IMG/VR virus record: IMGVR_UViG_3300030106_005110
Location: 24,600 to 46,545 of that record
Source of the DNA: a virus
DNA length: 21,946 bases
Strand: one strand, 5' to 3'
The notes under the pieces: model-generated
What the model saw: the letters and a program-made list of their open reading frames with translations, nothing else
What the model was told of the DNA's origin: nothing
The model's database searches: none
In this document: piece after piece, positions 373 through 19,419 of the stretch
How the letters are laid out: each line of letters starts with the position of its first letter
Numbering within the stretch: the first letter of the stretch is position 1
Translations under genes and position numbers: made by a program

Positions 373-1143
373 ATGAAAATAGGAGTTATAGGAGTAGGTG
401 TTGTAGGTACTGCGATAGAACAAGGTTTTAGAGATTTAGGTCATATAGTTAAAACTCACGATATAAAATTTAATACCAGGATCGAAAATGTACTAGATAC
501 TAAAATAGTATTTTTATGTCTACCTACTAATCCTGATAGAAGAGGCGAATGTAATACTAAACCTATTTTTCAGGTAGTAAGAAGATTAAATCACCTTAAA
601 TATAAAGGTATAATAGCTATTAAATCAACCATTATTCCAGGTACTTATGCTGAACTAAAAAAAGAATTTGATGAAGAAAGAATGTGTCATGTACCTGAGT
701 TTCTAAGAGAAAAATTTGCTTATGAGGATTTTACTGAAAACCATAACGTATTAGTAGTAGGAGCACCTAATTATGATGTTTCAAGAATAGTAATTAACTG
801 TCATGGTAATTACCCTAAAAACGTAATAGAAATGAAACCTGAAGAGGCTGAATTTGTAAAATATTTCTCTAACGTATTTAAAGCAGTTAAAATAACATTT
901 GCTAATTCATTCGGTAAGATATGCGACGAATTTGATATAGACTATAACTCAGTTTTGAAAGCATTCGAATTAGAAAACGTAAAAGAAACAAGTTATTTAA
1001 AATACTCTAATGAATTAAGAGGTTTTGGAGGTATGTGTTTACCAAAAGATGTTCAAGCTTTATCTAAATTAGTAGAGAATAAAGATATTGATGTAAACTT
1101 ATTTAAATTTATTTTAGATGAAAACGAAAAGTTTATACGATAG
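373..1143 (+). CDS. Short UDP-glucose/GDP-mannose 6-dehydrogenase family protein
   Basis: A predicted NAD-dependent sugar-nucleotide 6-dehydrogenase, which would oxidise a UDP- or GDP-hexose to the uronic acid. The N-terminus has the Rossmann motif GVGVVG (residues 7-12), then KST-x-IPGT (Lys84 region), PEFLRE (from residue 108), the central helix pattern E-x-EFVKYFSN, and GFGGMCLPKD with the presumed catalytic Cys222. At 256 residues it is much shorter than the usual 390-450. The C-terminal sugar-nucleotide-binding domain is essentially missing and the protein ends about 30 residues after the catalytic cysteine. There is no sign of a frameshift, because the stop lies inside the start of the next gene. 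It may be a trimmed but active enzyme, or one acting on another substrate. Family assignment is secure; substrate is not. Confidence 0.85.
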   Translation: MKIGVIGVGVVGTAIEQGFRDLGHIVKTHDIKFNTRIENVLDTKIVFLCLPTNPDRRGECNTKPIFQVVRRLNHLKYKGIIAIKSTIIPGTYAELKKEFDEERMCHVPEFLREKFAYEDFTENHNVLVVGAPNYDVSRIVINCHGNYPKNVIEMKPEEAEFVKYFSNVFKAVKITFANSFGKICDEFDIDYNSVLKAFELENVKETSYLKYSNELRGFGGMCLPKDVQALSKLVENKDIDVNLFKFILDENEKFIR

Positions 1144-1993
1144 TTTTAAAACGAATAAACAAGATTTTGAAACTATTCTGCTATGTAACTACGCTGAGCA
1201 GAATAAAACATTATATTGGAAAGCTTCTGATACTAAAGATAAGTTTAAAGAAAAATTAAAAAATAAACCTGAAATAGCTTCCTACTGGGAAGATAAGTCT
1301 ATAAAGTATAGTTATAATAATTACGGATTTAGAACTTATGATAATTTTAATACTACTGATGAAGGTATAGTATGTTTAGGGTGTAGTTTTACTGAAGGAA
1401 TAGGGTTACCTTTAGAATATAACTGGGGTTATAAATTAGCAAAATATTTTAATTTAAAGCATTGGAATTTAGGTCAAGGAGCTATGGGACTCGAAACAGC
1501 TTTTAGACTTCTTCTTGGCGTATCAGATTGGTTAAAATTTAAAAAAGTTTTTTTATTCGTTCCACCTTTTTATAGAAATGAATTAATTACCTGTGATAAT
1601 GATTTTATAGAACCTTTTTTGACCGAAGAGAGTAATATAGGTCAAGGGTTTATACATTCGATGGGCGGTGAAGTTACTCCGCACATATTTAGTTCATTTG
1701 AACCTAAGGTTACTAAATTTTATGAAGCAGTTTTATTTGGTAGTAGGTTAAACGAAAGATTAAGAATGATAAGAAATCTTTGTTCTATTAAAGGATTATG
1801 TGAAGAGTTAGGAGTAGAGTTTTATTATCAAACATTTAGTAATCACTTTACTAAGGAAATTAAAGAAGAAGCGAATAGAATACCTGATGATGAATGTCCT
1901 GATATACAAGCTAGAGATCAACATTGGTCGGCTAAAAGGCAACATTTAATTTATAAAAAATTTATTGAATTATATGAGAATAATAACAGGTGA
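1118..1993 (+). CDS. SGNH/GDSL-hydrolase-like protein (first of four)
   Basis: A cytoplasmic-looking 291-residue protein with no signal peptide or membrane segment. The block I serine motif is LGCSFTEG with the nucleophile predicted at Ser90. A likely block II glycine/asparagine loop is NLGQGAMG. The C-terminal catalytic pair appears as RDQHWS (Asp267, His269), the D-x-H-W form seen in AlgX/DHHW-type O-acyltransferases and many phage SGNH proteins. Expected activity is hydrolysis or transfer of an O-acyl (for example acetyl) group on a sugar. The start at 1118 overlaps the dehydrogenase gene by 26 bases. No later in-frame methionine precedes the serine motif, so this start is the best choice. 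SGNH membership is well supported, the exact reaction is not. Confidence 0.7.
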   Translation: MKTKSLYDSFKTNKQDFETILLCNYAEQNKTLYWKASDTKDKFKEKLKNKPEIASYWEDKSIKYSYNNYGFRTYDNFNTTDEGIVCLGCSFTEGIGLPLEYNWGYKLAKYFNLKHWNLGQGAMGLETAFRLLLGVSDWLKFKKVFLFVPPFYRNELITCDNDFIEPFLTEESNIGQGFIHSMGGEVTPHIFSSFEPKVTKFYEAVLFGSRLNERLRMIRNLCSIKGLCEELGVEFYYQTFSNHFTKEIKEEANRIPDDECPDIQARDQHWSAKRQHLIYKKFIELYENNNR

Positions 1994-2828
1994 AAATATT
2001 CAAGACTTATGTGATATTAGTATAAGCAAAAAAGAACATAAAGTTTTAGAAAGTCAGAATCAACTTCAATCTATAGATATAGAAGAATTCGATTTTACTA
2101 ATTTTGATAATCCTTCTCTTGTTTATGTTAATAGTTCTTTAATTAATACTACGAAACCTACATTAACTAAATGTAAATTATACGATAAGCTAAATCAGTT
2201 TAAAAATCCGTTTGATTTAATTTTACATAATTCTGATGATTCTTTTGATAGTAAGCATTTAAATTATTTTGATATAAAAAATATTAAAAGAATATTTACT
2301 CAAAATATTAATACTGTTCATGAAAGATTATTTCCACTTCCTATTGGATTGGCTAATAGAATGTGGGATTTTGGAGATATAGAATATTTTGCAAATGAAT
2401 TAGAAAATTTACCTAAACAGGATAAATTTATTCATTTTAATTTTACTGTAGAAGGAGGAGCAAGAGATGAATATAGACCCCAATGTTATAAAGCTGCTAT
2501 AAATAAGGGTATTAAGATATCCCCTAGTTATAAATTTCATGAGTACGTTAAAGAAATAAGTAGATATAGGTATTGCCTAAGCCCAGAAGGTAACGGTATA
2601 GATTGCCATAGAATGTGGGAGTGTTTATACTTAAAAGTTATTCCTATATGTCATCGTAATATTTTAACTGAATATTTTTCTAAACTATTCCCTATAGTTT
2701 TAGTTAATGATTGGAATGATTTAGATTTAGAATATTTAAAAAATGAATATAAACCTGATTGGTCTAATTATAAGTTATTAGATTTAGATAATTATTTAAA
2801 CTATATTAAGTTATATGATAAGTCATAA
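1974..2828 (+). CDS. Exostosin-like (GT47-type) glycosyltransferase
   Basis: The last third (roughly residues 195-240) carries the exostosin-like signature: a Tyr-Arg-Tyr-Cys-Leu-Ser-Pro-Glu-Gly strand, then Gly-x-Asp-x-His-Arg-x-Trp-Glu, followed by VIPI. In this family the segment binds the nucleotide-sugar donor; the Glu and the basic His-Arg pair are the typical contacts. The N-terminal part (about residues 1-190) has no motif I can name but shows the alternating strand/helix pattern of a GT-B half. The frame also runs up to a TTG at 1965, but the ATG at 1974, giving Met-Arg-Ile-Ile-Thr, is a more natural start. It overlaps the previous gene by 20 bases. Probable role: adding a sugar to the glycan made by this cassette. 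Confidence 0.65.
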   Translation: MRIITGENIQDLCDISISKKEHKVLESQNQLQSIDIEEFDFTNFDNPSLVYVNSSLINTTKPTLTKCKLYDKLNQFKNPFDLILHNSDDSFDSKHLNYFDIKNIKRIFTQNINTVHERLFPLPIGLANRMWDFGDIEYFANELENLPKQDKFIHFNFTVEGGARDEYRPQCYKAAINKGIKISPSYKFHEYVKEISRYRYCLSPEGNGIDCHRMWECLYLKVIPICHRNILTEYFSKLFPIVLVNDWNDLDLEYLKNEYKPDWSNYKLLDLDNYLNYIKLYDKS

Positions 2829-3462
2829 AAATAAATTTGTATTCTTACATATACCTAAATGTGCTGGGACTTCTATAGGTGAAAAGTTAAATTTTCATTT
2901 CGATGAATTGTGGACTTATAGTGGTTTTAAAATACACCATGATGATTTAACTGAAGATATATTAAAAGAGTATTTCGTATTTACGATAGTTAGAAATCCT
3001 TGGGATAGATTATACTCTCAATACAAATTTAGACCTTGGCTAAATTGTGATCCATTTAAAGATACAGTATTTAATCTAGAAGAAAAATTTGAAGCTGCTT
3101 ATAATAAATCAGTAAGAAATATTCCGGAACATATTAACCCTGTATTAGATACAGCATATAATAGAGCTAATTGGTTTGATGAATTTATTCATATACCTTC
3201 TCAAGTTGAATTTTTAAACGGTAAATATAATGATAATATGAAAAAAATTTCGTATATTGATTATATAGGAAGGTTCGAAGATTTAGATAATTCTTGGAAG
3301 TATATATGCAATAAGTTAAATATTGAATATAGTAAACTACCTCATAAGAATAAAAGTGAATATAAAGAATTAGACTATAGAAAAGCTTATACTACAGAGA
3401 CTAGAGAATTTGTAGCAAAAAAGTATAGTGATGATATAAAATTATTTAATTATGAATTTTAA
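2815..3462 (+). CDS. Sulfotransferase (PAPS-dependent, carbohydrate/HNK-1-like type)
   Basis: Predicted to move a sulfuryl group from PAPS to a hydroxyl or amine, most likely on a sugar. The 5'-phosphosulfate loop is clear near the N-terminus: FLHIPKCAGTS (residues 10-20) with the key Lys15. The 3'-phosphate motif follows as VRNPWDRLYSQY (residues 59-70), with Arg60 and Ser68 as the expected contacts. A later GRFEDL segment and the HKNKS patch resemble the C-terminal part of the sulfotransferase family 2 fold. At 215 residues it is a compact soluble version without the membrane anchor of eukaryotic Golgi relatives. It overlaps the exostosin-like gene by 14 bases, which suggests coupled translation and perhaps action on the same glycan. 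PAPS would have to come from the host or from other phage genes. Confidence 0.85.
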   Translation: MISHKNKFVFLHIPKCAGTSIGEKLNFHFDELWTYSGFKIHHDDLTEDILKEYFVFTIVRNPWDRLYSQYKFRPWLNCDPFKDTVFNLEEKFEAAYNKSVRNIPEHINPVLDTAYNRANWFDEFIHIPSQVEFLNGKYNDNMKKISYIDYIGRFEDLDNSWKYICNKLNIEYSKLPHKNKSEYKELDYRKAYTTETREFVAKKYSDDIKLFNYEF

Positions 3463-4255
3463 TTATACTGGAGTAAGGTATTGGGGTGAAAATTTTAAAA
3501 AATTTAACCATTTCGATATTATTCATTATAAAGATGTAGTAGAAGCATATATTAAAACTTCTAATGAATTAAAACCTAACCATGAAAAGTTTGGTTGGAA
3601 CGAAAGACCTATAAACTCAGATGTTGATAATTTAGACGATACTAAAAACTGGAACGGATTTGACCCAGTATATTTTAATATTGATCCTACTGAAGAAACA
3701 GTAGTAATGGCAAAAGCTGATGTTATTTCGATGGATATGTCAGGAGTAGGTAATACTTGGGATAAATTCTTGTACTTAACTCTTCCTTATGATCTTATAA
3801 ATAAGTATATGACTAATATGCATGATAACGAAGATGTAAGTATAGCAAGAAAGTTTATAACAGAAGTAGAAGATAAAGTAGGATGGGATGGAGAAGAATG
3901 GAAAAATATAGAAAAAAAGTACGATGAACTATATCCTGCTACATCTCAATATACTGATCTGTATGAAACTCATACTTGTATAAAATGGAAACAAGATTTC
4001 GATATTAGACAGTATATATCAATTCAAAAAAATGGATTATTATTCCCTATATGTTATAATAGTATGTACCATATGTTAAGAAGAGGTACTCATAGAGCAG
4101 TACTACTAGCTATGACTAAAAGTGATGTACCTATATTTTTACAAGTACCTAATGAAAAACACTATAAAGTAACTACTCCAAAATTTTTCGGGGGTAAAAG
4201 ATTAGAAATGTGGGTAGATATAAATGATAAAAAATTAGATTTTAATTTAGTATGA
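3452..4255 (+). CDS. Unassigned protein with a ParB/sulfiredoxin-like C-terminal motif
   Basis: I do not recognise this 267-residue protein as a named family. The N-terminal 190 residues are acidic and rich in aromatic residues (many Trp, Tyr, Asp), with no signal peptide or membrane segment. Near residues 185-230 a segment reads Asp-Ile-Arg-x-Tyr-Ile-x-Ile-x-x-Asn-Gly-Leu-x-x-Pro-Ile, then LRRGTHRAVLLAM and VPIFLQVP. The order 'instruction strand, P-I, G-x-H-R, helix, V-P-strand' is what ParB N-terminal/sulfiredoxin-fold proteins show, where the G-x-H-R loop binds a nucleotide phosphate. That comparison rests on a short motif only. Its location between sulfotransferase (11-base overlap) and cytidylyltransferase (4-base overlap) suggests a role in glycan synthesis rather than DNA partitioning. 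Confidence 0.45.
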   Translation: MNFNYTGVRYWGENFKKFNHFDIIHYKDVVEAYIKTSNELKPNHEKFGWNERPINSDVDNLDDTKNWNGFDPVYFNIDPTEETVVMAKADVISMDMSGVGNTWDKFLYLTLPYDLINKYMTNMHDNEDVSIARKFITEVEDKVGWDGEEWKNIEKKYDELYPATSQYTDLYETHTCIKWKQDFDIRQYISIQKNGLLFPICYNSMYHMLRRGTHRAVLLAMTKSDVPIFLQVPNEKHYKVTTPKFFGGKRLEMWVDINDKKLDFNLV

Positions 4256-4926
4256 AAAGTATAGCAGTTATAATACATGCCAGGAGACAAAGTACTAGGT
4301 GCCCTGATAAGCATTTAAGAGATTTAGGTGACGGAAATACGTTAATAGATATTGCTATAAATAATGTTAATAAATTAAAAAATGTAGAAGAAAAATATTT
4401 AGCTGTATATGATAAAGAATTAATAGCAAAAGGAACTGATAAGGTAAATATATTACTAAGAGATTACGCAGCAGTAGCTCCTGGTAATTGCCATCATAGC
4501 ATAATGTACGATCACTTGAATGCTGTCGATTCAGATTATATAATTAATTATAATCCTTGTCAACCGTTTTTAGATGTAGATAAATTACAAAAAGTTATAG
4601 ATTGGTTTAAAGTATCTACTGCTCAGAGTGCTATTACAGTAAAAGAAACTAAAAACTTTTTTTGGGATAGTAAAAAATCTCCTGTTAACTTTAAACCTAA
4701 CGATAGATTATCAACTACTTCAGGTCCTTTTTTATGGGAAGCTACACATTCTTTAGTTATGTATAAACGTAATTATATGTTAGAAAACTGGGAATTATTT
4801 CCTAATACATATAACGAACCTTTTCCTTATTTAATCGATTGGCCAGAAGAGGAAATAGTAGATGTAGATACTGAATTAGATTTCGAATTAGTAAAACTAT
4901 TATATGAAAAAGAAGTACGTAATTGA
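4252..4926 (+). CDS. CMP-sugar cytidylyltransferase, NeuA/SpsF-like
   Basis: The N-terminus holds the nucleotide-binding signature of acylneuraminate cytidylyltransferases in the form IIHARRQSTRCPDKHLRDLG (about residues 7-26), where the Arg/Ser/Arg/Lys positions normally contact CTP. NPCQPF near residue 103 replaces the usual Q-P-T-S-P turn. The end, DWPEEEIVDVDTELDFELVK, matches the conserved I-D-V-D-T-x-x-D-x-x terminus that carries a metal-binding Asp pair. Length (224) is normal. The likely reaction is CTP plus a 2-keto-3-deoxy sugar acid giving CMP-sugar and pyrophosphate. A NeuB-type synthase is encoded at 13304-14137 in the same operon and would supply the substrate. SpsF-like proteins share the N-terminal signature and are the main alternative. 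It starts with an ATGA overlap. Confidence 0.7.
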   Translation: MKSIAVIIHARRQSTRCPDKHLRDLGDGNTLIDIAINNVNKLKNVEEKYLAVYDKELIAKGTDKVNILLRDYAAVAPGNCHHSIMYDHLNAVDSDYIINYNPCQPFLDVDKLQKVIDWFKVSTAQSAITVKETKNFFWDSKKSPVNFKPNDRLSTTSGPFLWEATHSLVMYKRNYMLENWELFPNTYNEPFPYLIDWPEEEIVDVDTELDFELVKLLYEKEVRN

Positions 4927-5212
4927 TATAGACGATACTATATGCATAGAGAAAGGTCCTGTTATAAGTAGGATACCCTATCGTGATAGAATAAAGCAAA
5001 TTAACGAACTATATGATCAAGGACATACTATTATTTTTTATACTGCTAGAGGTAATAAAAGTGGAAGAGGAGAAAAATACTATAGACCTATAACTGAAGC
5101 TCAATTAGAGTCTTGGGGAGTAAAATATCATCATTTATATTTTAAACCCTTCGATGCTGATATATTTATAGATGATAGATCTATTCATCCTGATGAATTT
5201 TTCAATAACTAA
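4904..5212 (+). CDS. Small HAD-superfamily phosphatase
   Basis: A 102-residue protein with the HAD motif I DIDDT (Asp8 nucleophile, Asp10 acid/base), motif II Thr in YTARG (Thr47), a Lys in FKPFDAD as probable motif III, and IDDRS as motif IV. It has almost no cap insertion, as in the short capsule-cluster phosphatases and the DxDDT type. It probably removes phosphate from a small sugar phosphate or related intermediate. In NeuB/NeuA pathways a HAD enzyme can dephosphorylate the 9-phosphate sugar acid, but this protein is far smaller than NANP-type enzymes, so that link is only suggestive. The start overlaps the upstream gene by 23 bases and leaves a complete beta-strand before motif I. The next gene follows after 2 bases. 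Confidence 0.75.
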   Translation: MKKKYVIDIDDTICIEKGPVISRIPYRDRIKQINELYDQGHTIIFYTARGNKSGRGEKYYRPITEAQLESWGVKYHHLYFKPFDADIFIDDRSIHPDEFFNN

Positions 5213-5214
5213 TT

Positions 5215-6165
5215 ATGAAACAGTTTTTTAATATAGTTTTACCAATGGCCGGCAGAGGGTCAAGATTTAGAGAAGAAGGATATACCGAATCAAAACCATT
5301 TATTAACCTAAATGGTAGGTATATGATAGAACATGTAATTCAAAACCTAGGAATAAAATTCGATAGTAATTTTAAATTTATTATTATATGCCAAAAAACC
5401 GATTATGAAAAATACGATTTCAACTTTATTAATAAACTTATAGGTCACGATAATGTTGAAATAATTACTTTAGGTAAAACTACTGAAGGAGCAGCTTGTA
5501 CACTACTTACTGCCAAAAATTTTATAGATAACAAAGTACCTCTTTTAAGTTTTAATTCTGATCAAATGATAGATTATGATGCTAATGAAACTTTTAGTAG
5601 ATTGAGTTTGCATGATGGTGGTATGCCTTGCTTTTATGGTGAAAGTGATGATTGGAGTTATGCAAAAACCGATAGTGATGGGTATGTACTAGAAGTAGCA
5701 GAAAAAAAGAAAATATCGAATGACGCAACAGCAGGGTATTACTATTGGAGCAGAGGATCAGACTTCGTAAAGTATGCTGAACAGATGATAGAAGCAAACG
5801 ATAGAGTAAATAATGAATTTTACGTAGCCCCTGTTTATAACTATGCAATTAAAGACGGAAAAAAAATAGTAATAACTCACGTAGATGAAGTATATGAACT
5901 AGGAACGCCTTTATGGTTAGAGCAGTATGTTACTGATCATTTAAGATTTGCTAATGAAAACGATTTCGATAGAGGAATATTTTATGAAACTCCTGAAAAT
6001 GGACTTTTTGAAGTAAAATGGCCGAAAGGTAATTTAAGGTATCAATGGTATTATAAAGACGGTATTAGAGCAGATGGAATATCAAAAAGCTGGAACCCAG
6101 ATGGTACTATAAAATATACTACTTACTGGAAAGAAGGAAAAGAATATAAAAGAGAAAAAAAGTGA
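5215..6165 (+). CDS. Sugar-1-phosphate nucleotidyltransferase with C-terminal YwqK/MORN-like repeats
   Basis: Residues 1 to about 250 form a nucleotidyltransferase domain. LPMAGRGSRF near the N-terminus is the nucleotide-binding G-x-G-S-R-F loop; the Lys of SKPF contacts phosphate in the family; TEGAACT and FNSDQ (Asp metal site) follow; ELGTP lies near the end. It would activate a sugar-1-phosphate to an NDP-sugar. Residues 261-316 are a separate unit with repeated aromatic-Gly-Asn/Asp spacing (KWPKGNLRYQWYYKDG, then SWNPDGTIKYTTYWKEGK), typical of YwqK/MORN-like short beta hairpins that in other proteins bind membranes, proteins or glycans. The nucleotidyltransferase domain is a close paralogue of the second half of the gene at 14902-16281. 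A basic tail (KREKK) ends the protein. Confidence 0.8.
   Translation: MKQFFNIVLPMAGRGSRFREEGYTESKPFINLNGRYMIEHVIQNLGIKFDSNFKFIIICQKTDYEKYDFNFINKLIGHDNVEIITLGKTTEGAACTLLTAKNFIDNKVPLLSFNSDQMIDYDANETFSRLSLHDGGMPCFYGESDDWSYAKTDSDGYVLEVAEKKKISNDATAGYYYWSRGSDFVKYAEQMIEANDRVNNEFYVAPVYNYAIKDGKKIVITHVDEVYELGTPLWLEQYVTDHLRFANENDFDRGIFYETPENGLFEVKWPKGNLRYQWYYKDGIRADGISKSWNPDGTIKYTTYWKEGKEYKREKK
5224..5925 (+). repeat. Homologous nucleotidyltransferase segment, copy 1
   Basis: Encodes the nucleotidyltransferase domain paralogous to 15571-16267. Identical 21-base stretches shared with copy 2 lie at 5482-5502 and 5802-5822. Same orientation, about 10.3 kb apart. Confidence 0.75.
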
Positions 6166-6836
6166 AAAAAGTAGCTATATGTTTTTGGGGTCAAACTAGA
6201 ACTTTTAGTACCTTATCTGAATATTTTAAACTTAAGCATGATAATATTAAGTTTGATTATTTTATTAGTACTTGGGATGATTTTGAAGATAAATTTAACT
6301 TTGACTCTTTTCAAGGAAAAGAATTTATAGATCCTGAAATAATGGATTTTAAAAATAATACTGATAGAGCTTTTTATTTAATTCATAGAGTTAATAACTT
6401 AAAGTCTAAGTACGAATTAAATAATGGTTTTGTTTATGATTATATACTATGGACTAGAAGTGAAATACTATTTGAAAGTAAGTACTTATTAGAGTATATA
6501 ATAAGTAAATTAAATTTTACAAAGTACGATGATAACCATAAATTAACCGAAATAAATACGCTTTCAGATATTAAATCTGAAATAGATAGAGATTCTGAAG
6601 AAGAGGTTTTGAGATTAGATGCAGATTATTCATTTTTAGGTACATCACTTGCTTTCGATTTATACGCTTCAGGTTGGAAATATTATTTTAAGAGTAGAAA
6701 GTGTGATGATTTTCATGCAAGATCTGGAGGCCATCATGCTCATGCTTCAGTAATAAAGAAGTTTAATTTAGAAGCTGTAAAGTGTAAAATAGCTCATAAA
6801 TTTCAGTTTAGTAAACTATATAAAAGGGAGGTATGA
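6162..6836 (+). CDS. Putative glycosyltransferase-like protein (CFWGQTRTF type)
   Basis: The start codon is GTG, overlapping the upstream TGA as GTGA; the protein then begins Met-Lys-Lys-Val-Ala-Ile-Cys-Phe-Trp-Gly-Gln-Thr-Arg. This Cys-Phe-x-Gly-Gln-x-Arg opening followed by DYFISTWDD, and later YDYILWTRSEILF, resembles a group of small putative GT-A-like glycosyltransferases found in surface-polysaccharide clusters and in cyanophage genomes, where the second motif sits where a metal-binding D-x-D would be. The conserved SGGHHAHAS stretch near residues 187-195 is striking and may be a metal or substrate site. No signal peptide or membrane segment is visible. It is probably a cytoplasmic transferase, but I cannot name the sugar. 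It may be a distant relative of the protein at 19425-20165. Confidence 0.5.
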   Translation: MKKVAICFWGQTRTFSTLSEYFKLKHDNIKFDYFISTWDDFEDKFNFDSFQGKEFIDPEIMDFKNNTDRAFYLIHRVNNLKSKYELNNGFVYDYILWTRSEILFESKYLLEYIISKLNFTKYDDNHKLTEINTLSDIKSEIDRDSEEEVLRLDADYSFLGTSLAFDLYASGWKYYFKSRKCDDFHARSGGHHAHASVIKKFNLEAVKCKIAHKFQFSKLYKREV

Positions 6837-7756
6837 CAAAACCTATTACATATGCTTATTTAGAGACTACAAATTACTGTAATCTACAGTGTTCGTTCTG
6901 TAATAGACACGAAGTAATTGGAGCGTTACAGCATATGCCTGTATCCAAGTTTAGAAAAATGTTAGAAGGTTTGAAACATCATCCTATCGAAGAAGCTAAA
7001 CTAATGGGAATGGGAGAACCTATGCTTCATCCTCAATTCGATGAAATATGTAAAACTTTCAAAGAATTTTTTCCTGATGCATTTTTAATAGTTGCAACTA
7101 ATTGTCAATATCCTGTAAAGCCTCATACTAAAATGGGTATAAAGTTTCAAAACTGTATGAAATATATAGACTTATTGTATTTTAGTATCGATGGTTATAA
7201 AGAATCTTATGAAAGAGATAGAGCTCCGGCTAAATGGAGTAAATTAATATCATTTTTAGATAACTTCCAGTATATGGATAGGAGTGACTGTAGAGTAACT
7301 TGTAATTACGTGGTAAATCCTCAGAACGTTTATGATATTCCCCTTATAAACGAAAGGATAGTAAAGCAGTACGATTTAGAAGAATTAAGATTAAATATAG
7401 CACAAGATTGGTCAGCAGATAAATCAATGCCGGGTGGCTATTCTGAAAAAGATTTACTATATTTAAAGAATAACTGGAAAGATAATATAAAAGGGAAAGA
7501 TGAATGGGATTTTCCTGATTGTTTTTGGGTCAAGAACGGTATATACACGACTGTGGAAGGTCACGTTAAGATGTGCTGCCTTAATACAGGAGCTAAACCG
7601 TTTGGCAATCTTTTTGAGAATACGATAGATGAGATTAGAGAAAGTGAAGATTATTTAAATGTAAAAAATGGTTGTTTAACTAATAAACCTACATCTCATT
7701 GTAAAAACTGTTCTTATAAAGAATTAACTCCAATGCTATCAATAATAAGAAGTTAA
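6833..7756 (+). CDS. Radical SAM enzyme with SPASM-like C-terminal cysteines
   Basis: The 4Fe-4S cluster motif C-x3-C-x2-C is present as Cys16, Cys20 and Cys23, with an aromatic before the last cysteine, so SAM cleavage chemistry is expected. MGMGEPMLHP is the GGEP-like SAM-binding motif, and YFSIDG the downstream strand-4 motif. The C-terminal 90 residues contain more cysteines in the order FPDCF, MCCLN, GCLTN and HCKNC, the layout of a SPASM domain carrying auxiliary iron-sulfur clusters. Such enzymes modify peptides, cofactors or, in some antibiotic and polysaccharide pathways, sugars by oxidation or epimerisation. In this context a sugar or lipid-linked substrate is the natural guess. The start overlaps the previous gene as ATGA. 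A GGGAGG run ends 2 bases before the ATG, too close for a normal ribosome site. Confidence 0.85.
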   Translation: MTKPITYAYLETTNYCNLQCSFCNRHEVIGALQHMPVSKFRKMLEGLKHHPIEEAKLMGMGEPMLHPQFDEICKTFKEFFPDAFLIVATNCQYPVKPHTKMGIKFQNCMKYIDLLYFSIDGYKESYERDRAPAKWSKLISFLDNFQYMDRSDCRVTCNYVVNPQNVYDIPLINERIVKQYDLEELRLNIAQDWSADKSMPGGYSEKDLLYLKNNWKDNIKGKDEWDFPDCFWVKNGIYTTVEGHVKMCCLNTGAKPFGNLFENTIDEIRESEDYLNVKNGCLTNKPTSHCKNCSYKELTPMLSIIRS

Positions 7757-7759
7757 GTT

Positions 7760-9798: not shown

Positions 9799-11170
9799 CT
9801 ATAATCAAGAAACGAGAGAAAGGTTAGATAAAGTTTTAAGTTTAAACGATATCTACCATATAACTTCATTACCAATAGAGTTTGCTTCTATAGACGCTGG
9901 CGGTTTTGCAGCTAACCCAGGTTTCTTATCTTTCCAATGGATATATGATAGATTAGGATTTTATAATTCGATTAGACAGTATGATACTTTTATGAGAAGA
10001 ATTATCGAATTCCAACAAGCAGGAGATTTTTTAAATACTTTAAGACAGAGGTTAAATATTACTCATGAAATGATAAAATGTAATTTAGATAGTAATTTAC
10101 CTGTACATATTTCATGTTGTAATCTAAAAGGAAAAGAAGATAATAAAACTTTAGATTTAAAGAATATTAAAAAAGATGATTTTCTTATAACTATTCATCC
10201 TGGTCAAACAAGAGCACAAGGAAGTGTATTTTTAAGAGATCCATTAAAAAACGTTCTATTATATATAAAAAAAGATCAAAAAATAAAACTTAAAAAGTAT
10301 AGCTTTATAAAAAAACTTACTACTAAAGAACAATTAGTTAAGGTATATAGAGAAGATAATACACTTCACGACGGTGGAGAAAGTGAAATAGATTTTTTTA
10401 TGCCTGGTAATGCTAACGATATTGAAGATGGATTAAAAAAACATATACAGACCGACACCCTTATACTAAAAGCTAATAATATTAAAACACCAGGTAAAGA
10501 TGGTAGTCTACATTCAAGTGTTACATACTTACCTAAGACTTTCGTTTCAATGAATGATTTTGCTAAAATATTTTTTAATAATTACCTAAAAATATATACC
10601 AATAGTAGAAAAAGAGCTGTTGAATTAGTAGAAGGAGGAAGAAAAAAACTTTTAAATAACGTACTTAAAGAAGAAAAAGATAGATATGTTTATTCTAAAT
10701 TAACTAGAGTATCTAGAGATATGTTAAAAGAAAAAGAACTCAATGGAGGATCAACTTGGGGTAGATGGGCTAATTTAGGAAAATTAAATCATGATTATAT
10801 TATTAAAAATTTAACTAAACAAGAAGCTCTTATTGGGGAAATGACTAATACTCTAATAAAAATAAGTGAAGAAGAAACTATACATAACCTTGGTTATGAT
10901 TATATAGAAAAAAACGTAAGTAACTATAAAGAAATAGTCAAAGATAATTCGTATAAAGGATTTTGTATAGTAATAAACACTGAAGAACTAAAAAGTTTTG
11001 AAAGAGATTTAGCTGAATTATTTTTCTGTATACCCGCTTCTTACTCTTTAGCTAGAACTAAAAATAAAAGTATTGCTATAATAAACTGTGAGCATAAATA
11101 TTGGAAAGGAAAAGGAGAAATAAAAGAATATATTATTAATGATAATTTTTGTAAAGAATGGCATCAATAG
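9791..11170 (+). CDS. Large unassigned protein (459 residues), possible ParB/sulfiredoxin-like motif
   Basis: I cannot assign this protein. Visible traits: an N-terminal stretch with SIDAGGFAANPGF and a basic helix; a segment near residues 100-155 reading VHISCC, then ITIHPGQTRAQGSVFL and LKNVLLYIKK; a very lysine-rich central helix region (about residues 280-345); and a C-terminal strand set ending with AIINCEHKYWKGKG. The HPGQTR-helix-LLYI order is loosely like the G-x-H-R phosphate loop of ParB/sulfiredoxin-fold proteins and echoes the LRRGTHR motif of the protein at 3452-4255. No signal peptide, membrane segment or known metal motif is evident. It overlaps the aminotransferase by 8 bases and the dehydrogenase by 13, so it is translated with the glycan enzymes. 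Function unknown. Confidence 0.6.
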   Translation: MYNYNQETRERLDKVLSLNDIYHITSLPIEFASIDAGGFAANPGFLSFQWIYDRLGFYNSIRQYDTFMRRIIEFQQAGDFLNTLRQRLNITHEMIKCNLDSNLPVHISCCNLKGKEDNKTLDLKNIKKDDFLITIHPGQTRAQGSVFLRDPLKNVLLYIKKDQKIKLKKYSFIKKLTTKEQLVKVYREDNTLHDGGESEIDFFMPGNANDIEDGLKKHIQTDTLILKANNIKTPGKDGSLHSSVTYLPKTFVSMNDFAKIFFNNYLKIYTNSRKRAVELVEGGRKKLLNNVLKEEKDRYVYSKLTRVSRDMLKEKELNGGSTWGRWANLGKLNHDYIIKNLTKQEALIGEMTNTLIKISEEETIHNLGYDYIEKNVSNYKEIVKDNSYKGFCIVINTEELKSFERDLAELFFCIPASYSLARTKNKSIAIINCEHKYWKGKGEIKEYIINDNFCKEWHQ

Positions 11171-11994
11171 GTTTTTTGACACCGTATAAGCACTTACCAG
11201 ACTTTAAAGATTATGTAGAAAGTAATTTTAAATGTCTTAATTTAAGTAAAATAAAGAAAGAAGAAATTAAAATGTTTAAAGGAATCGATTATTTATTCGG
11301 TGCCCCTAACTATTTAAGGTACGTTATAGAAGATAGTGATATAGAAGGAACAAATATCAAAGGTATAATATCTCCTTCAACAGGATTAAACCACATTAAA
11401 GCTAAATCTGTTCCTACCTTTAGTATAAAAAATGATAAAATACTAGATACTATTACTTCTACTGCTGAACATAACCTTTTCTTAATTTTAGCTATTACTA
11501 GACAGGTTGGGAAAATACAAGAGTTAAGTAAAATGACATTAGGTATTTTAGGCTACGGTAGATTAGGTAAATTAATTTATAATATATGTAAAAATATTTT
11601 TAAAGATGTATTAATATCAGATTTAGACCATACCGATGAAGACTTTTTTAAAGATACTGATTTTTTAAGTATTAATATTGACTTAAGAGATAAAAATATA
11701 AACTTTATTAATGAAAATTACCTAAGTAAGTTTGATAAGAATATATTTATTATAAACACAGCAAGAGGTGAAGTTATTAATGAAGATGATATTTTAAACA
11801 GTATTACTTCCGGAAAAGTATTAGGTTATGCTACTGATGTTTTAAAAGAAGAACATTCTGATAAGGCTACTAATTTAAAAATTTGTAACGATCCTCGTAT
11901 AATTAAAACTAGCCATATAGGAGGAACTGCTATACAGGCACAAGAGGTTGCTTATAAACACGTTATTAGTAAATTAGATGAAAAAATACGATAA
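11158..11994 (+). CDS. D-isomer-specific 2-hydroxyacid dehydrogenase, short form
   Basis: The NAD-binding motif is GYGRLG (residues 132-137) in the context TLGILGYGRLG. The catalytic set is recognisable: Arg203 in INTARGEVINEDDIL, Glu231/Glu232 after TDVLK, and His253 in SHIGG. These are the Arg, Glu and His of the family (phosphoglycerate and glyoxylate dehydrogenases, PdxB). At 278 residues it is about 40 shorter than usual; the N-terminal substrate domain and the linker before the Rossmann motif are trimmed. It should interconvert a 2-keto acid and a D-2-hydroxy acid. With the aminotransferase two genes upstream it could form a small route to an amino or hydroxy-acid substituent for the glycan; that pairing is inferred from position only. 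Confidence 0.85.
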   Translation: MASIGFLTPYKHLPDFKDYVESNFKCLNLSKIKKEEIKMFKGIDYLFGAPNYLRYVIEDSDIEGTNIKGIISPSTGLNHIKAKSVPTFSIKNDKILDTITSTAEHNLFLILAITRQVGKIQELSKMTLGILGYGRLGKLIYNICKNIFKDVLISDLDHTDEDFFKDTDFLSINIDLRDKNINFINENYLSKFDKNIFIINTARGEVINEDDILNSITSGKVLGYATDVLKEEHSDKATNLKICNDPRIIKTSHIGGTAIQAQEVAYKHVISKLDEKIR

Positions 11995-12790
11995 TATTAT
12001 TTCAACAGGTTGTAGTTTTGTATTAGGAGCTAATATTCAAGACAATAATGATAAATGGGTAGGTGAACAATATAGGTTCTCTAAATTATTAGCCGATTAT
12101 TACTCAGCTAAAGAATATAATGACTCTGTTCCAGGTTCTGGTAATGAAAGAATTCTTAATACCGTATTTAATACTTATCAAAAACTTAAATCGCAAAATA
12201 ATCTTTTTATAGTTGGGTTAAGTGGAATTACTAGAGAATTATTTTTTACTAATAATAGAGAAGAATATTTTGATATTCATGCTCACGATTTATTAGACGA
12301 AGAAATACGTTTTAAAAAATTAGGTACTAAATTATTTGGTAGTGATTACGATAAAGAATGGATAAAAAAATGGAGATATTTAAATCTTAAGTATTTTTAT
12401 AATTATAATGAAGCTAGAACTATATTACAAAGAAATATTCTTTTTTTAGATGGATTTTTTAAAAGTAGGAATATAGATTATATACTTTTTAACTCTATTA
12501 GTGATGATATAGACGAAATAAAAAAAGATATTAATTATTTAAGCTTTGATATTAAAGATGGTAAATCATATCCTAAAACCGATCATACTAAAACTAATAG
12601 TTCTGAAGAAGATGATACTTGGTACCATTATTTAAGACTAAGACAAGAAGAAATAAATCCTGACTTTAATAATAAAGTATATAGAAGTAATAAACCTGAA
12701 TACGGCGAGTGGTTCTGCGGCGGCCATCCATCACCTAACGCTAATAAGGATTTAGCAGATAAATTAATAAAAAAAATAAACGTATTATAA
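11978..12790 (+). CDS. SGNH/GDSL-hydrolase-like protein (third of four)
   Basis: The protein opens with ISTGCSFVLG, placing the nucleophile at Ser13 directly after the first beta strand, and continues with PGSGNERI as a probable block II/III oxyanion loop. Near the end GGHPSPNANKDLADKL provides the catalytic histidine (His250) in the H-P-S-P form common among phage SGNH proteins; the acidic partner is not obvious in the usual position. At 270 residues it has no signal peptide. The middle is rich in Tyr, Phe and Asp and is not recognisable. It overlaps the dehydrogenase gene by 17 bases and its stop shares one base with the next start (TAATG). Likely a carbohydrate esterase or acyltransferase. 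Confidence 0.65.
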   Translation: MKKYDNIISTGCSFVLGANIQDNNDKWVGEQYRFSKLLADYYSAKEYNDSVPGSGNERILNTVFNTYQKLKSQNNLFIVGLSGITRELFFTNNREEYFDIHAHDLLDEEIRFKKLGTKLFGSDYDKEWIKKWRYLNLKYFYNYNEARTILQRNILFLDGFFKSRNIDYILFNSISDDIDEIKKDINYLSFDIKDGKSYPKTDHTKTNSSEEDDTWYHYLRLRQEEINPDFNNKVYRSNKPEYGEWFCGGHPSPNANKDLADKLIKKINVL

Positions 12791-13296
12791 TGGATTGGAG
12801 AAAATTTGATAAATATAAAAATGCTTTTAATTTTATAGAAGAAAATAAACCTGCCCTTATAGTTGAATACGGATCAGGAGGTAGTACTTTACATCTTTAT
12901 AACTGCTTAAAAGAGCTAAATTATGGAGGTAGGTTAATTACATATGAAGATAGTGAAGAATATCGAAATATTATGGTAGATGAATTTCCTTACCTTGCAG
13001 ATATTATCAAAATAGCACCGATAGAATACGTAGATAAAGCTAAAGGTAAAGTTAAGTATGTACACGATTATGAAGAAATAAAAGACGTTGGATTAGTAAT
13101 AATAGATGGTCCTGATTATAGAGTTCATAAGACTGATAAAGGATACCCTTCTAACTTGACTACTAATTTAGAAGATATAAATAATTATCTTAACAAACAC
13201 GTACCTTATTTTATAGATGGAAGATCAGGGTGTATTAATTATTATAACAATTTAAACTATTCTAATTTTATAGAACAGCACTGGCCAGTAAACTAA
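12790..13296 (+). CDS. Class I SAM-dependent methyltransferase-like protein
   Basis: A 168-residue protein with the class I methyltransferase motif I as LIVEYGSGGST (residues 23-33), an acidic end of strand 2 at ITYEDSEEY, and a motif IV-like VIIDGP followed by DYR. This arrangement binds S-adenosylmethionine in small-molecule and sugar methyltransferases. The short length leaves little room for a substrate domain, so it may act on a small sugar or the end of a glycan chain. The stop is followed by a 7-base gap before the NeuB-type gene. Some related small proteins in polysaccharide clusters are annotated only as hypothetical, so activity should be regarded as probable rather than certain. 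Confidence 0.55.
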   Translation: MDWRKFDKYKNAFNFIEENKPALIVEYGSGGSTLHLYNCLKELNYGGRLITYEDSEEYRNIMVDEFPYLADIIKIAPIEYVDKAKGKVKYVHDYEEIKDVGLVIIDGPDYRVHKTDKGYPSNLTTNLEDINNYLNKHVPYFIDGRSGCINYYNNLNYSNFIEQHWPVN

Positions 13297-13303
13297 TTTA
13301 TTT

Positions 13304-14137
13304 ATGAAAATAATATCAGAACTTTGTCAAAACCATAACGGTAATTTAGAAACGCTAGAAAGCATGATTAAATCTGCTGCAAAAAATAGCGATATTTTAA
13401 AGATACAGTCAATTAAGGCTAATACTTTAACTAATAGAGAAGAGTTTGAAGAGTTTAGACCATTTAAAGGTGAGTACGATAGATTAAAAGGTTTAGAATT
13501 ATCAAAAGAAGACGAAGAGTTTTTTATTTTTAAATGTATGGAGTATGGAGTTGATTCTATGACTACTGTATTTACCCCAGATCATGCAGACTATTTTAAT
13601 GAACTTGGTTATACTAATCTGAAGCTATCAGGCTACTCTATACCGGCTTTTGATTACGGTAAAAAATTAGTAAATTTTAATTTTGAAAAATTATATTTTT
13701 CTGCTTCTAGTTTATCTTTAGATGAAATATCTCAAACTATAGCAAATTTAAGAGAATTAAATATAGATTTTTGCTTACTTGGGTGTACTTGTGTATATCC
13801 TACTCCTTTAGAAAAAGCAAATTTACAAAACATACCTTTTTATAAATTTTATTTTAATTTAGATGAAATAGGATATAGTGATCATTCTAATCCTTATGAA
13901 GATAATTTACTAACTACAAAGTTAGCTATTTTTCAAGGAGTAGATGTAGTAGAAAGACATTATACTATAATGGATAAAGATAGTACTAGAGACGGTAAAG
14001 TTTCTATAAATGCAAATATGCTAGCTGAACTTAAACGATTTAGTAAATTGCATAAATACGCACAGTATAACGAACTTAATCAGTTTAATGAACAGCAAAT
14101 TTTCAACCACAACTATTATAGAGGAAGATTTAAATAG
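13304..14137 (+). CDS. NeuB/LegI/PseI-type nonulosonic acid synthase, catalytic domain only
   Basis: Predicted to condense phosphoenolpyruvate with a six-carbon amino sugar to a nine-carbon 2-keto sugar acid (sialic, legionaminic or pseudaminic type). The sequence begins with the family signature ISELCQNHNGNLE (residues 4-16), continues with LKIQS, CTCVYPTPLEKANL, and IGYSDHS in which His194 is the expected metal ligand, and VVERHYT near the end. It has 277 residues instead of about 340-350; the C-terminal SAF (antifreeze-like) domain, which in NeuB dimers reaches into the partner's active site, is missing. The NeuA-like gene at 4252-4926 would activate the product with CMP. The specific sugar cannot be told from sequence alone. 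Confidence 0.85.
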   Translation: MKIISELCQNHNGNLETLESMIKSAAKNSDILKIQSIKANTLTNREEFEEFRPFKGEYDRLKGLELSKEDEEFFIFKCMEYGVDSMTTVFTPDHADYFNELGYTNLKLSGYSIPAFDYGKKLVNFNFEKLYFSASSLSLDEISQTIANLRELNIDFCLLGCTCVYPTPLEKANLQNIPFYKFYFNLDEIGYSDHSNPYEDNLLTTKLAIFQGVDVVERHYTIMDKDSTRDGKVSINANMLAELKRFSKLHKYAQYNELNQFNEQQIFNHNYYRGRFK

Positions 14138-14140
14138 ATT

Positions 14141-14905
14141 ATGAAAGTATTATTAACTAATGGTGATAGTTGGACGCAAGGAGATTCTCCTGCTCAAATT
14201 AAATACTCTGAAACTTCTAAAAGTTTAGATTGGTATGATATTATACCTAACTTTGGGTACCCGGCAGGTAAACATAGTAAAAAAGTAGTTTATAAGTTTT
14301 ATGGTAGTGAAGTTTGGCCTAAGGTCTTAGGAAGAAAGCTAGGAATAGAGACTTGGAATGCAGGAAGATTAGGTGATGATAATAAAGGTATAGCTTGCAG
14401 AACTATTAATAGTATAGAATATTTAAAATCTCTAGGTAAAAAAGATATTTTCGTTATTATAGGATGGACTAGTGCTTTTAGGACACCAGTTATTAAATGG
14501 GATGAAGGAAAACAAAGATTTTCATCACATCATGTTAGACCTCATACTCAGGGAGTTGAATCTTTAGATTTTTATGGTAAAACTATGCTCGAATTTACAA
14601 ACGAATGTCTTAATAATATTTTATTTCTGCAGTACTACTTAGAGTATAATAATATAGATTATTTGTTTTTTAATGCATTTGATGAAATTACTATTAATCA
14701 AACTGTTCCTATGAGACATTTAGTTAAATATGAAAACTGGATTGATAATAATATACATCCAGGTCATTTTAAAGATTATATTTTACGAACTGTTCCGTTA
14801 AATGATTGGCAAAACAATGAATATTTTGAAACCTGGCATCCTAAAGATAATGCTCATACCTTATGGGGGGAGTATTTGTATGACTATATAAAAGATAATA
14901 AATGA
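14141..14905 (+). CDS. SGNH/GDSL-hydrolase-like protein (fourth of four)
   Basis: This is the most classical of the four: NGDSWTQGDS gives the GDS-x-T-x-G block I with Ser10, NAGRLGDDNKG resembles block II/III with glycine and asparagine for the oxyanion hole, and TWHPKDNAH near the C-terminus supplies the catalytic His233. Length 254, no signal peptide, no membrane segment. It probably removes or transfers acyl groups on carbohydrate. It sits between the NeuB-type synthase (3-base gap) and the HAD/nucleotidyltransferase fusion (ATGA overlap), so an O-acetylation step on the nonulosonate-type sugar is a reasonable guess. Confidence 0.7.
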   Translation: MKVLLTNGDSWTQGDSPAQIKYSETSKSLDWYDIIPNFGYPAGKHSKKVVYKFYGSEVWPKVLGRKLGIETWNAGRLGDDNKGIACRTINSIEYLKSLGKKDIFVIIGWTSAFRTPVIKWDEGKQRFSSHHVRPHTQGVESLDFYGKTMLEFTNECLNNILFLQYYLEYNNIDYLFFNAFDEITINQTVPMRHLVKYENWIDNNIHPGHFKDYILRTVPLNDWQNNEYFETWHPKDNAHTLWGEYLYDYIKDNK

Positions 14906-16281
14906 AAAAAGTAGTTAGTTTAATTATTTTTGATTTAGATGGAGTATTAGTAGAAGCTAAAAATTTACATTTTCAAGCTTTAAATGAAGCATTATCTGAA
15001 GTTAATCCTGGTTATAAAATAGATTGGTCTGAACATTTAAATAAGTATGATGGTTTAAAAACTTATCAAAAATTAAACTTAATATCTGACGAAAAGGGTC
15101 TACCTCGAGAAATACATAATCAAGTATGGGAAAAAAAGCAACATATAACTTTAAGTAAATTAAGTAGGATAGAAGAGAATGACGATTTAATAGAAACGTT
15201 TGTTAAATTGTATAATCAAGGATTTAAATTAGCAGTTTGTAGTAATTCTATTAGACGAACTTGTTTAACAGTTTTATCTAAATTAGGATTAATAGAATAC
15301 TTAGATTTAATTATATCTAATGAAGATGTAAAGAATGGAAAACCTCACCCTGAAATGTATTGGAAAGCTATATCAATGATGAGCTGTTTACCTGAAGAAA
15401 CTTTGATAGTAGAAGATTCACCTTATGGATTATTAGCAGCAGCACGTTCTAAATCTCATATATTAAGAGTAAAAAATCCTTCTGAAGTTACATACGATAA
15501 TTTAATAAATAAACTTAACCAAATCGAAATGGGAGAAAAACAAGCAACTCCTGCCTGGAGAGATGAAAAATTAAATATATTAATACCTATGGCTGGTGCT
15601 GGAAGTAGATTCGAACAAGCCGGGTATACTTTTCCTAAACCTTTGATAGATGTTAAAGGAAGACCTATGATTCAAGTAGTAACTGAGAATTTAAATATAA
15701 AAGCAAATTATATTTACGTAGTGCAAAAAGAACATAGAGAAAAGTATAATTTAGATACTTTATTAAACTTAATAACCCCAGGCTGTAAAATAGTAGAAAC
15801 TGAAGGTATAACTGAAGGAGCAGCTTGTACAGCATTATTAGCTAAAAAATATATTAATAATAATAATCCTTTATTTTTTGCTAACTCAGATCAATTTGTA
15901 GAATGGGACTCTAATGAGTTTTTATATAAAATGAATGAGACTAACGCAGATGGAGGTATAGTAACTTTTAAAGCTACACATCCTAAATGGTCTTTCGCTA
16001 AATTAAATAAAGAAGGGTTAGTGACTGAAGTTGCTGAAAAAAATCCTATATCCGATACAGCTACTGTTGGGTACTACTATTGGAAAAAAGGTTCTGACTT
16101 TGTAAAGTACGCAGAAGATATGATAAATAAAAATATTAGAGTAAATAATGAATTTTATGTTTGTCCTGTTTTTAATCAAGCTATACAAGACAATAAACAA
16201 ATAAGGACTTATAATATAAATAAAATGTGGGGATTAGGAACTCCTGAAGATTTAAAATACTATTTAGAAAATTATAAATGA
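14902..16281 (+). CDS. HAD phosphatase (phosphoglucomutase-like) fused to sugar-1-phosphate nucleotidyltransferase
   Basis: Two domains in one frame. Residues 1-205 are a HAD hydrolase of the beta-phosphoglucomutase/phosphatase type: FDLDGVLVE with Asp11 and Asp13, a helical cap, the motif II serine in AVCSNSIRR, a motif III Lys in KNGKPHPEMY, and IVEDSPYG as motif IV. Residues 224-459 are a nucleotidyltransferase: LIPMAGAGSRF, FPKPL (Lys), TEGAACT, FANSDQ and LGTPEDL. The second half is strongly similar to the protein at 5215-6165, including near-identical segments. A fusion could hand a sugar phosphate from phosphatase or mutase to activation; if the HAD part is a mutase, it would convert a 6-phosphate into the 1-phosphate the second domain needs. 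Starts in an ATGA overlap and ends in another. Confidence 0.85.
   Translation: MKKVVSLIIFDLDGVLVEAKNLHFQALNEALSEVNPGYKIDWSEHLNKYDGLKTYQKLNLISDEKGLPREIHNQVWEKKQHITLSKLSRIEENDDLIETFVKLYNQGFKLAVCSNSIRRTCLTVLSKLGLIEYLDLIISNEDVKNGKPHPEMYWKAISMMSCLPEETLIVEDSPYGLLAAARSKSHILRVKNPSEVTYDNLINKLNQIEMGEKQATPAWRDEKLNILIPMAGAGSRFEQAGYTFPKPLIDVKGRPMIQVVTENLNIKANYIYVVQKEHREKYNLDTLLNLITPGCKIVETEGITEGAACTALLAKKYINNNNPLFFANSDQFVEWDSNEFLYKMNETNADGGIVTFKATHPKWSFAKLNKEGLVTEVAEKNPISDTATVGYYYWKKGSDFVKYAEDMINKNIRVNNEFYVCPVFNQAIQDNKQIRTYNINKMWGLGTPEDLKYYLENYK
15571..16267 (+). repeat. Homologous nucleotidyltransferase segment, copy 2
   Basis: The second copy, inside the HAD fusion gene. The identical 21-base stretches lie at 15811-15831 and 16137-16157. 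Protein similarity runs through the whole domain, so this reflects duplication or exchange rather than chance. Confidence 0.75.
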
Positions 16282-16727
16282 TATTAATTTCGCATAGAGG
16301 AAATATTGACGGACCTGAACCTGATACTGAAAATAAACCTTCACGTATACAGTATGCTATATCACAAGGATATGATGTAGAGGTTGACTTTTGGTTCGTT
16401 GATAATAAGTTTTATTTAGGTCATGATGAACCTCAATACGATATTCCTATTGAATTTTTAGAGCAGAGTTATACTAGATTATGGATACATTGTAAAAACG
16501 TAGATGCTATAAATAAGCTGCATGAGCTTGATAGAAGTGGTTTTTATTTAAATTACTTTTGGCATGAAGAAGATAAAGTAGCATTAACATCTAAAGGATA
16601 CCTTTGGGCTTATCCAGGAGTAGAATGTTCTAATGCGATAGCAGTAATGCCGGAACTAGCAGATAAAAATTTTAATACTGATAATGCATTAGGTATTTGT
16701 AGTGACTATATATTAAGATATGAATAA
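16278..16727 (+). CDS. Short glycerophosphodiester phosphodiesterase (GDPD)-like protein
   Basis: The N-terminal half matches the GDPD/PI-PLC-like barrel: ISHRGN (His6, Arg7), a conserved Glu in TENKP (Glu18), GYDVEVDFW (Glu35 and Asp37, the metal ligands) and LGHDEP (His49). These are the His/Glu/Asp/His residues needed for phosphodiester hydrolysis. At 149 residues the protein is far shorter than the usual 240 or more, so later strands of the barrel are missing. It may be a compact variant that cuts small phosphodiesters such as glycerol-phosphate or a phosphodiester-linked glycan. No signal peptide is present, unlike periplasmic GlpQ. ATGA overlap with the fusion gene; it overlaps the next small gene by 8 bases. 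Confidence 0.75.
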   Translation: MILISHRGNIDGPEPDTENKPSRIQYAISQGYDVEVDFWFVDNKFYLGHDEPQYDIPIEFLEQSYTRLWIHCKNVDAINKLHELDRSGFYLNYFWHEEDKVALTSKGYLWAYPGVECSNAIAVMPELADKNFNTDNALGICSDYILRYE

Positions 16728-19394: not shown

Positions 19395-19419
19395 AAACCC
19401 AGCTTGTCTGGGTTTTTTT
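19395..19419 (+). terminator. Rho-independent terminator after sheath-tube unit
   Basis: AAACCCAG (19395-19402) pairs with CTGGGTTT (19408-19415) around a CTTGT loop; the 5-bp CCCAG/CTGGG core is followed directly by seven T. This is a textbook intrinsic terminator and the best one in the window. It separates highly expressed tail genes from the glycosyltransferase-like gene whose start codon lies only 6 bases after the T-run. Confidence 0.9.

Follow-up and report, generated by a model that had tools for sequence, protein, structure and literature searches.

Does a T4-like marine phage carry a working route to an acidic sugar of its own and, if so, where does that sugar go? The question is raised by a run of tightly packed genes in the window, the 21,946-nucleotide stretch analyzed here, which forms the end of a viral record of 46,545 bases (IMG/VR IMGVR_UViG_3300030106_005110, positions 24,600 to 46,545). 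An earlier reading of these letters without database searches (hereafter the sequence-only reading) had described twenty or so overlapping genes at positions 373 to 16,727, and indeed 20 open reading frames (ORFs) lie there, all on the plus strand; most share a few bases with their neighbors. It is likely that they form part of a working route to an acidic sugar of ulosonic type. The reading that we prefer, at a probability of about 0.5, is that of a cytosolic phage pathway in which a 3-deoxy-ulosonic sugar, activated with cytidine monophosphate (CMP), would be built into a short decorated glycan and placed on the phage's own tail or head proteins late in infection.

A search of marine viral contigs with the NeuB-type synthase of the window recovered 47 viral loci, of which all but a few carry the complete gene. 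In the 24 contigs that extend at least 9.4 kb upstream, the radical SAM protein (rSAM), the family-less protein g13 and g5-type proteins occur in all 24, a D-2-hydroxyacid dehydrogenase (HADH) in 23, a HisC-like aminotransferase in 22, a cytidylyltransferase (CMT) in 21, the nucleotidyltransferase NTP1 and the glycosyltransferase-like GT2 in 20 each, and a small HAD phosphatase in 19. The gene order is nearly always CMT-HAD-NTP1-rSAM-HisC-g13-HADH-NeuB. Downstream, in the 29 contigs with enough sequence, we found a HAD/NTP-transferase fusion (HAD/NTP) in 18, a GDPD-like gene in 17 and the tail sheath in 20. Set against related marine viral contigs, the block described by the sequence-only reading thus holds an ordered core that recurs more often than by chance. 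Every island gene has a dN/dS of 0.03-0.16 between the window and its closest relative (sheath, 0.05; baseplate hub, 0.14), and the island genes are under purifying selection. The distances of NeuB, HADH and GDPD track those of the sheath (Spearman 0.65-0.79; 0 of 500 permutations), whereas those of the methyltransferase and g13 do not, which means that much of the core is inherited along with the structural genes, some decoration genes being swapped. Sulfotransferase, SGNH and methyltransferase genes turn over between relatives.

The synthase has the TIM-barrel domain, metal-binding His pair and phosphoenolpyruvate (PEP)-binding residues of the NeuB family; the short catalytic motifs are present in 46 of 46 phage orthologues, and synthase homologues are found in PDB. 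The C-terminal SAF (antifreeze-like) domain, which completes the active site in NeuB-family synthases of sialic and other nonulosonic acids, is not present in the 277 amino acids of the window NeuB, where 61 residues follow the ERHxT motif against 111-117 in most classic copies. The NeuB-type assignment of the sequence-only reading therefore stands for the catalytic domain and not for the SAF domain, and because the latter is missing, a 'NeuB-type/NeuA-like acidic sugar' should not be taken to mean sialic acid. Sialic acid proper was rejected as the product on these grounds, the NCBIfam cut-offs also being missed. In a phylogenetic tree the 46 phage copies form one clade (100/100) beside short NeuBs from cells and apart from the classic NeuBs; the sampling was seeded by the phage sequence and motifs, and unsampled cellular copies could nest inside this clade. 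A C-terminal signature, N[RH]x[YF]Yxx[RS]F, is found in 46 of 46 phage, 45 of 46 cellular and none of seven classic NeuBs, the cellular count being partly built in by the motif-based sampling. Relatives of the short NeuB are encoded in genomes of SAR11, Prochlorococcus, Thaumarchaeota, bacteria of the candidate phyla radiation (CPR) and others.

These SAF-less cellular NeuBs have the same partners as the phage copies, so that phages and cells have the sugar module in common. The order in a SAR11 genome (locus L088) is HADH, NeuB, CBS-UGDH, a GT28-like gene and CMT, and in Peribacteria (L071) CBS-UGDH, GT28-like, NeuB, CMT and HADH; in Kuenenbacteria (L100), NeuB is followed by a single protein with CMT, methyltransferase and HADH domains. 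Of the 47 cellular loci, about 12 have HADH directly beside NeuB, and the best cellular match of the phage HADH is the NeuB-adjacent copy in 10 of 11 such genomes. In 12 cellular loci, a GT28-like gene next to NeuB is matched by full-length phage homologues of the GT28-like protein (L012/L016), and one cellular GT28-like protein matches Glyco_tran_28_C just below the cut-off. Given these neighborhoods, the fusion and the best matches of HADH and the GT28-like protein, the prediction that CMT, NeuB, HADH and the GT28-like protein act in one pathway is well supported. Neither the SAF-less NeuB core nor its cellular module turned out to be described in the open-access literature that was searched. 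The sequence-only reading had held that the same block on bacterial chromosomes free of phage genes would weaken its case: the GT28-like/NeuB/CMT/HADH sub-module does occur in bacteria and archaea, but searches there did not turn up the larger block that includes g13. Neither 197 SAR11-family genomes nor 12 cellular genomes with the module yielded g13 (two phage records were detected as positive controls in the latter search), and a single-sequence viral search with g13 returned 14 contigs, all already found by NeuB; the full block with g13 thus appears, as seen so far, in phages only.

Most island enzymes keep their catalytic residues, so that the finding which the sequence-only reading named as one that would weaken its idea, enzymes mostly without such residues, did not materialize. 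Catalytic motifs or homologues were found for the UDP-sugar dehydrogenase (UGDH), HADH, rSAM and HisC. The UGDH, predicted earlier as a uronate-type dehydrogenase, matches its family profile and retains the catalytic K, N and Cys (GGxCxPKD) within NAD-binding and central domains only; in a profile search its 256 residues did not match the C-terminal UDP-binding domain PF03720. In one related record (G232, the record of L011) this gene lies at 15700-16421 in two frames with a stop, from sequencing error or decay. CMT scores above the Pfam cut-off for the cytidylyltransferase family. The sulfotransferase, the radical SAM protein and the two nucleotidyltransferases were recovered by profile matches, the second nucleotidyltransferase being fused to a beta-PGM-like HAD domain, while the methyltransferase is a weak assignment. 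The four SGNH proteins hold up as well, although none has a Pfam SGNH match: S10 and H233 are invariant and N73 and G78 nearly so over 22 paralogues and orthologues, and the conserved Ser, Gly, Asn and His blocks are those of the SGNH hydrolase/acyltransferase superfamily. Hydropathy gave no clear signal peptide for them.

In the pathway that we propose, NTP1, HAD/NTP and UGDH would make a nucleoside diphosphate (NDP)-sugar or uronate, and the GT28-like protein would either release the sugar, in the manner of PseG in pseudaminic acid synthesis, or transfer it. NeuB-family enzymes carry out PEP condensation and CTP_transf_3 enzymes CMP activation; the short NeuB would condense the free sugar with PEP, and CMT would activate the product with CMP. 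D-2-hydroxyacid dehydrogenases perform alpha-hydroxy/keto chemistry and HisC-type enzymes transamination, and HADH and HisC may act as a pair leading from an alpha-hydroxy through an alpha-keto to an alpha-amino acid. Glycosyltransferases, perhaps g13 among them, would transfer the activated sugar, the sulfotransferase, SGNH and methyltransferase proteins would vary its decoration, and the glycan would most likely end up on tail or head proteins of the phage itself late in infection. The product, which like its target on the virion or the host surface we infer, would be an acidic sugar, probably one that is not N-acylated, with a non-N-acylated acceptor sugar.

The target is where the explanations part. 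Host-surface remodelling, in which activated sugars feed O-antigen or capsule export of the host and the altered surface blocks superinfection, is what is usually proposed where marine T4-like phages carry glycan islands (PMC7029224, PMC9602691, PMC5332604), and it gains from the cellular module loci: 36 of 549 ORFs there are polytopic (four or more membrane spans by hydropathy), affecting 26 of 34 loci, and the sugar is therefore probably used in exported surface glycans in cells. By the same measure none of 538 ORFs in 39 phage islands is a flippase, a polymerase or any other polytopic enzyme, and in the window's contig no island protein has even one span, only a GT3-like gene in the tail block having one. 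The phage therefore brings no flippase, polymerase or ligase, and the islands hold none of the polytopic membrane proteins with which Gtr/Oac-type serotype conversion acts on the host O-antigen. The location among head and tail genes suggests late, not early, expression, which also speaks against remodelling. We regard such remodelling as possible, if on the unlikely side, and grade the host surface as target no higher. The lack of polytopic proteins shifts the odds towards virion decoration without proving it; cytosolic decoration of virion proteins is the best fit, host export machinery being the main alternative, and for the virion as the main target we see roughly even odds. The sequence-only reading, that the phage builds its own surface glycan or remodels that of the host, thus finds partial support, in the phage DNA, the catalytic residues, the conserved ordered block and the purifying selection. 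Two further explanations dispense with a surface glycan. Cyanophage lipopolysaccharide (LPS) clusters have been suggested as possible stuffer DNA for headful packaging (PMC3037559), and host glycan genes might likewise have been acquired passively at a permissive insertion site, without a selected function; dN/dS values similar to those of sheath and hub, an ordered core repeated in 24 contigs and gene distances that track the sheath largely refute this, and we give it hardly any weight. That the sugars are put on phage DNA against restriction, as in T4, would suit a T4-like phage with many glycosyltransferases, for which DNA glycosylation is a known role (PMC12619734). No base-hydroxymethylating enzyme was recognized in the 46.5-kb contig, itself a fragment. 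We know of no precedent for NeuB, CMT, sulfotransferase or SGNH proteins in DNA modification, and consider this explanation very unlikely.

Several observations weigh against virion decoration by the proposed pathway. The best score of CMT against specific families, PseF and KdsB included, is 35 bits where the curated cut-offs are 155-281, and because of this distance its sugar is not assigned. UGDH was found in 10 of 20 related virus records, some of the records being fragments. An orthology of the phage UGDH with the cellular CBS-UGDH was considered and rejected, its best match being an ordinary UGDH in nearly all of 15 genomes; the two are functionally parallel, not orthologous, and since UGDH is also absent from many records, the uronate step does not belong to the core. 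The cellular loci showed no HisC, and the Lys pattern used for it matched 25 of 33 orthologues (HADH motif patterns, 28-36 of 36). The T4-like late-promoter motif TATAAATA is not enriched, with 15 occurrences against 12.3 expected in the window and 6 against 6.5 upstream. Export of the glycan by a flippase and ligase of the host is conceivable, which keeps the host surface in play. A broader version of the proposal, which we hold to be doubtful, is that SAF-less NeuB, the GT28-like protein, CMT and HADH form an undescribed pathway, widespread in marine bacteria and archaea, to a CMP-3-deoxy-ulosonic acid with a non-N-acylated acceptor (for example an ulosaric double-acid or alpha-amino sugar), which T4-like phages would have acquired once, extended with g13 and the radical SAM protein, and used to coat their virions.

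Two conserved island proteins fall outside known families. Neither Pfam nor PHROG assigns g13 to a family; its C-terminal half is weakly GT-A/nucleotidyltransferase-like (Z 4.5 only) and its N-terminal half gives weak sulfiredoxin (Srx) matches (TM 0.36-0.41 by target). For g5, a very weak ParB_N-like alignment falls in the right place at 3.4% probability. Foldseek and VIA-align yielded no convincing match, and no relation between the two proteins was found. A ParB/Srx fold with its GxxR-type loop was considered for both and not adopted, the motif being suggestive and the profile comparison giving 3.4% (g5) and 0.1% (g13, which has no profile match to ParB). Some islands hold several divergent copies of the g5 family, and the window copy (3452-4255) carries an RGTHR motif.

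The island is larger than first described. The sequence-only reading began the block at position 373, but the start of the window already falls within a GT28-like gene; glycosyltransferase, SGNH and radical SAM genes extend upstream, and the glycan-type genes form a single-strand series from about 12.4 kb to about 41.3 kb of the contig, or about 29 kb, bordered by tail-fibre genes on one side and the tail-sheath gene on the other. A short run of N at about 4590 of L003 breaks the GT28-like gene shortly before the window. Also found in the upstream half are a GT7-type galactosyltransferase with a fused laminin-G domain, a GT2, a DUF6734 protein, a methyltransferase, a second radical SAM protein and, by motif, two further SGNH genes; the fusion (L002:15104-16492) has a neighbor at 16489-17907 that appears similar. 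The DNA is that of a T4-like phage, with head protease, major capsid, tail fibre, sheath, tube and hub all on one contig: a head maturation protease, major head protein, head-tail adaptor and tail-fibre-type proteins lie upstream, and tail sheath, tube, baseplate hub and the start of a tape-measure-like gene follow in the window, in agreement with the earlier placement beside tail genes. With its sugar-synthesis and transferase genes inside the structural region, it belongs to the glycan islands of marine T4-like phages. The nearest isolate is Flavobacterium phage immuto (sheath, 65.6%; capsid, 69.2%), in which the structural gene order is identical and no glycan island is annotated between the last tail-fibre gene and the sheath. 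Because sheath and capsid are closest to this phage, a Bacteroidota host is likely; a pelagiphage origin, guessed from low GC, was dropped when the same two proteins matched immuto. In the window phage and a few relatives, a glycosyltransferase-like gene (GT3-like, 19404-20165) sits inside the tail operon, with a dN/dS of 0.26.

Table. Genes of the island and adjoining tail region in the window (core, member of the ordered core; loci, viral contigs with the gene among those with enough flanking sequence).
Feature	Position	Strand	Evidence or remark
g0, C-terminal part of GT28-like (MurG/PseG-type GT-B) protein	2..370	+	N-terminal part upstream in contig (L003:4081...)
UDP-sugar (UGDH-type) dehydrogenase, 256 aa	373..1143	+	PF00984 1e-22
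SGNH1, esterase/acyltransferase-like, without signal peptide	1118..1993	+	S/G/N/H blocks
GT1, putative exostosin/RXYLT1-like glycosyltransferase	1965..2828	+	weak, E=0.028
Sulfotransferase (Sulfotransfer_2)	2815..3462	+	PF03567, E=2.4e-15
g5, without Pfam family	3452..4255	+	RGTHR motif; relatives in 24/24 loci
CMT, NeuA/KdsB-type cytidylyltransferase (core)	4252..4926	+	PF02348 1.8e-9; 21/24 loci
Small HAD phosphatase, EcbF/BcbF-like (core)	4904..5212	+	19/24 loci
NTP1, sugar-1-phosphate-type nucleotidyltransferase (core)	5215..6165	+	PF00483; 20/24 loci
GT2, glycosyltransferase-like	6162..6836	+	PHROG 13607 (function unknown); 20/24 loci
Radical SAM/SPASM protein (core)	6833..7756	+	profile match; 24/24 loci
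SGNH2	7760..8779	+	S/G/N/H motif alignment
HisC-like PLP (pyridoxal phosphate) aminotransferase (core)	8779..9798	+	PF00155 2e-35; 22/24 loci
g13, core protein without known family	9791..11170	+	invariant HPGxTR; 24/24 loci
HADH, D-2-hydroxyacid dehydrogenase (core)	11158..11994	+	PF02826 1e-26; 23/24 loci
SGNH3	11978..12790	+	S/G/N/H motif alignment
Putative methyltransferase	12790..13296	+	weak; best relevant match CmcI, E=0.07
Short NeuB-family PEP-condensing synthase without SAF domain (core)	13304..14137	+	PF03102 4e-31; C-terminal N[RH]xYYxGRF-type signature
SGNH4 (DUF6071-like, below cut-off)	14141..14905	+	S/G/N/H motif alignment
HAD (beta-PGM-like) fused to NTP transferase	14902..16281	+	PF00483; ~57% identical Synechococcus cyanophage homologues
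GDPD-like small protein, last island gene	16278..16727	+	PHROG 34507 (function unknown); name from reading sequence; 17/29 loci
g21, small hypothetical protein bridging island and tail genes	16720..16968	+	
Tail sheath, right border of island	17085..18848	+	65.6% to Flavobacterium phage immuto
Tail tube protein	18885..19370	+	
GT3-like gene between tail tube and baseplate hub	19404..20165	+	present in some relatives

Glycan islands in marine T4-like phages are already known (PMC7029224, PMC3037559, PMC9602691), and a marine viral genome with NeuA and KdsA has been reported (PMC5332604). Like the present island, the hypervariable host recognition cluster of pelagimyophages and cyanomyophages is a large island set among structural genes; it contains tail-fibre genes, glycosyltransferases and UDP-glucose dehydrogenase and is proposed to alter surface glycans (PMC7029224). 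That cluster is flanked by VrlC and gp14 and has been reported as non-syntenic and as holding many glycosyltransferases, whereas the window island adjoins the tail sheath in an Immutovirus-like lineage and has an ordered core of 8-11 genes around SAF-less NeuB. Phage-borne sugar-nucleotide and transferase genes are also found in the LPS gene clusters of cyanophages P-SSM2, S-SSM7 and S-SCSM1 (PMC3037559, PMC9602691); those examined lie near photosynthesis or tRNA genes, not tail genes. The homologues of the HAD/NTP fusion in cultured Synechococcus phages likewise lie in a glycan cluster near photosynthesis genes, and no NeuB match was found in the cyanophage records. With the nonulosonic acid pathways (sialic, NeuB/NeuA; pseudaminic, PseI/PseF; legionaminic) the island shares a PEP-condensing synthase, a CMP-transferase, nucleotidyltransferases and an aminotransferase; it differs in lacking SAF, in its additional D-2-hydroxyacid dehydrogenase and radical SAM protein, and in scores far below equivalog cut-offs. 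A precedent for glycosylated virion proteins comes from mycobacteriophages Che8, Corndog and Myrna, which decorate capsid or tail proteins with phage enzymes; as cited in PMC12363180 and PMC12619734, the work of Freeman et al. 2023 reports glycosyltransferases, not a full pathway to a new activated sugar.

An earlier study left open whether the 'LPS clusters' of marine phages have a function or serve as stuffer DNA (PMC3037559). For one lineage, the question is answered by a core that is conserved, ordered and under purifying selection, and the enzymes can be named. Should the virion prove to be the target, the phage would encode the whole pathway for making its own sugar coat, for which the literature examined shows no precedent in a bacterial phage. 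The occurrence of the module in SAR11, Prochlorococcus and Thaumarchaeota would, in turn, point to an unrecognized acidic sugar on very abundant ocean cells.

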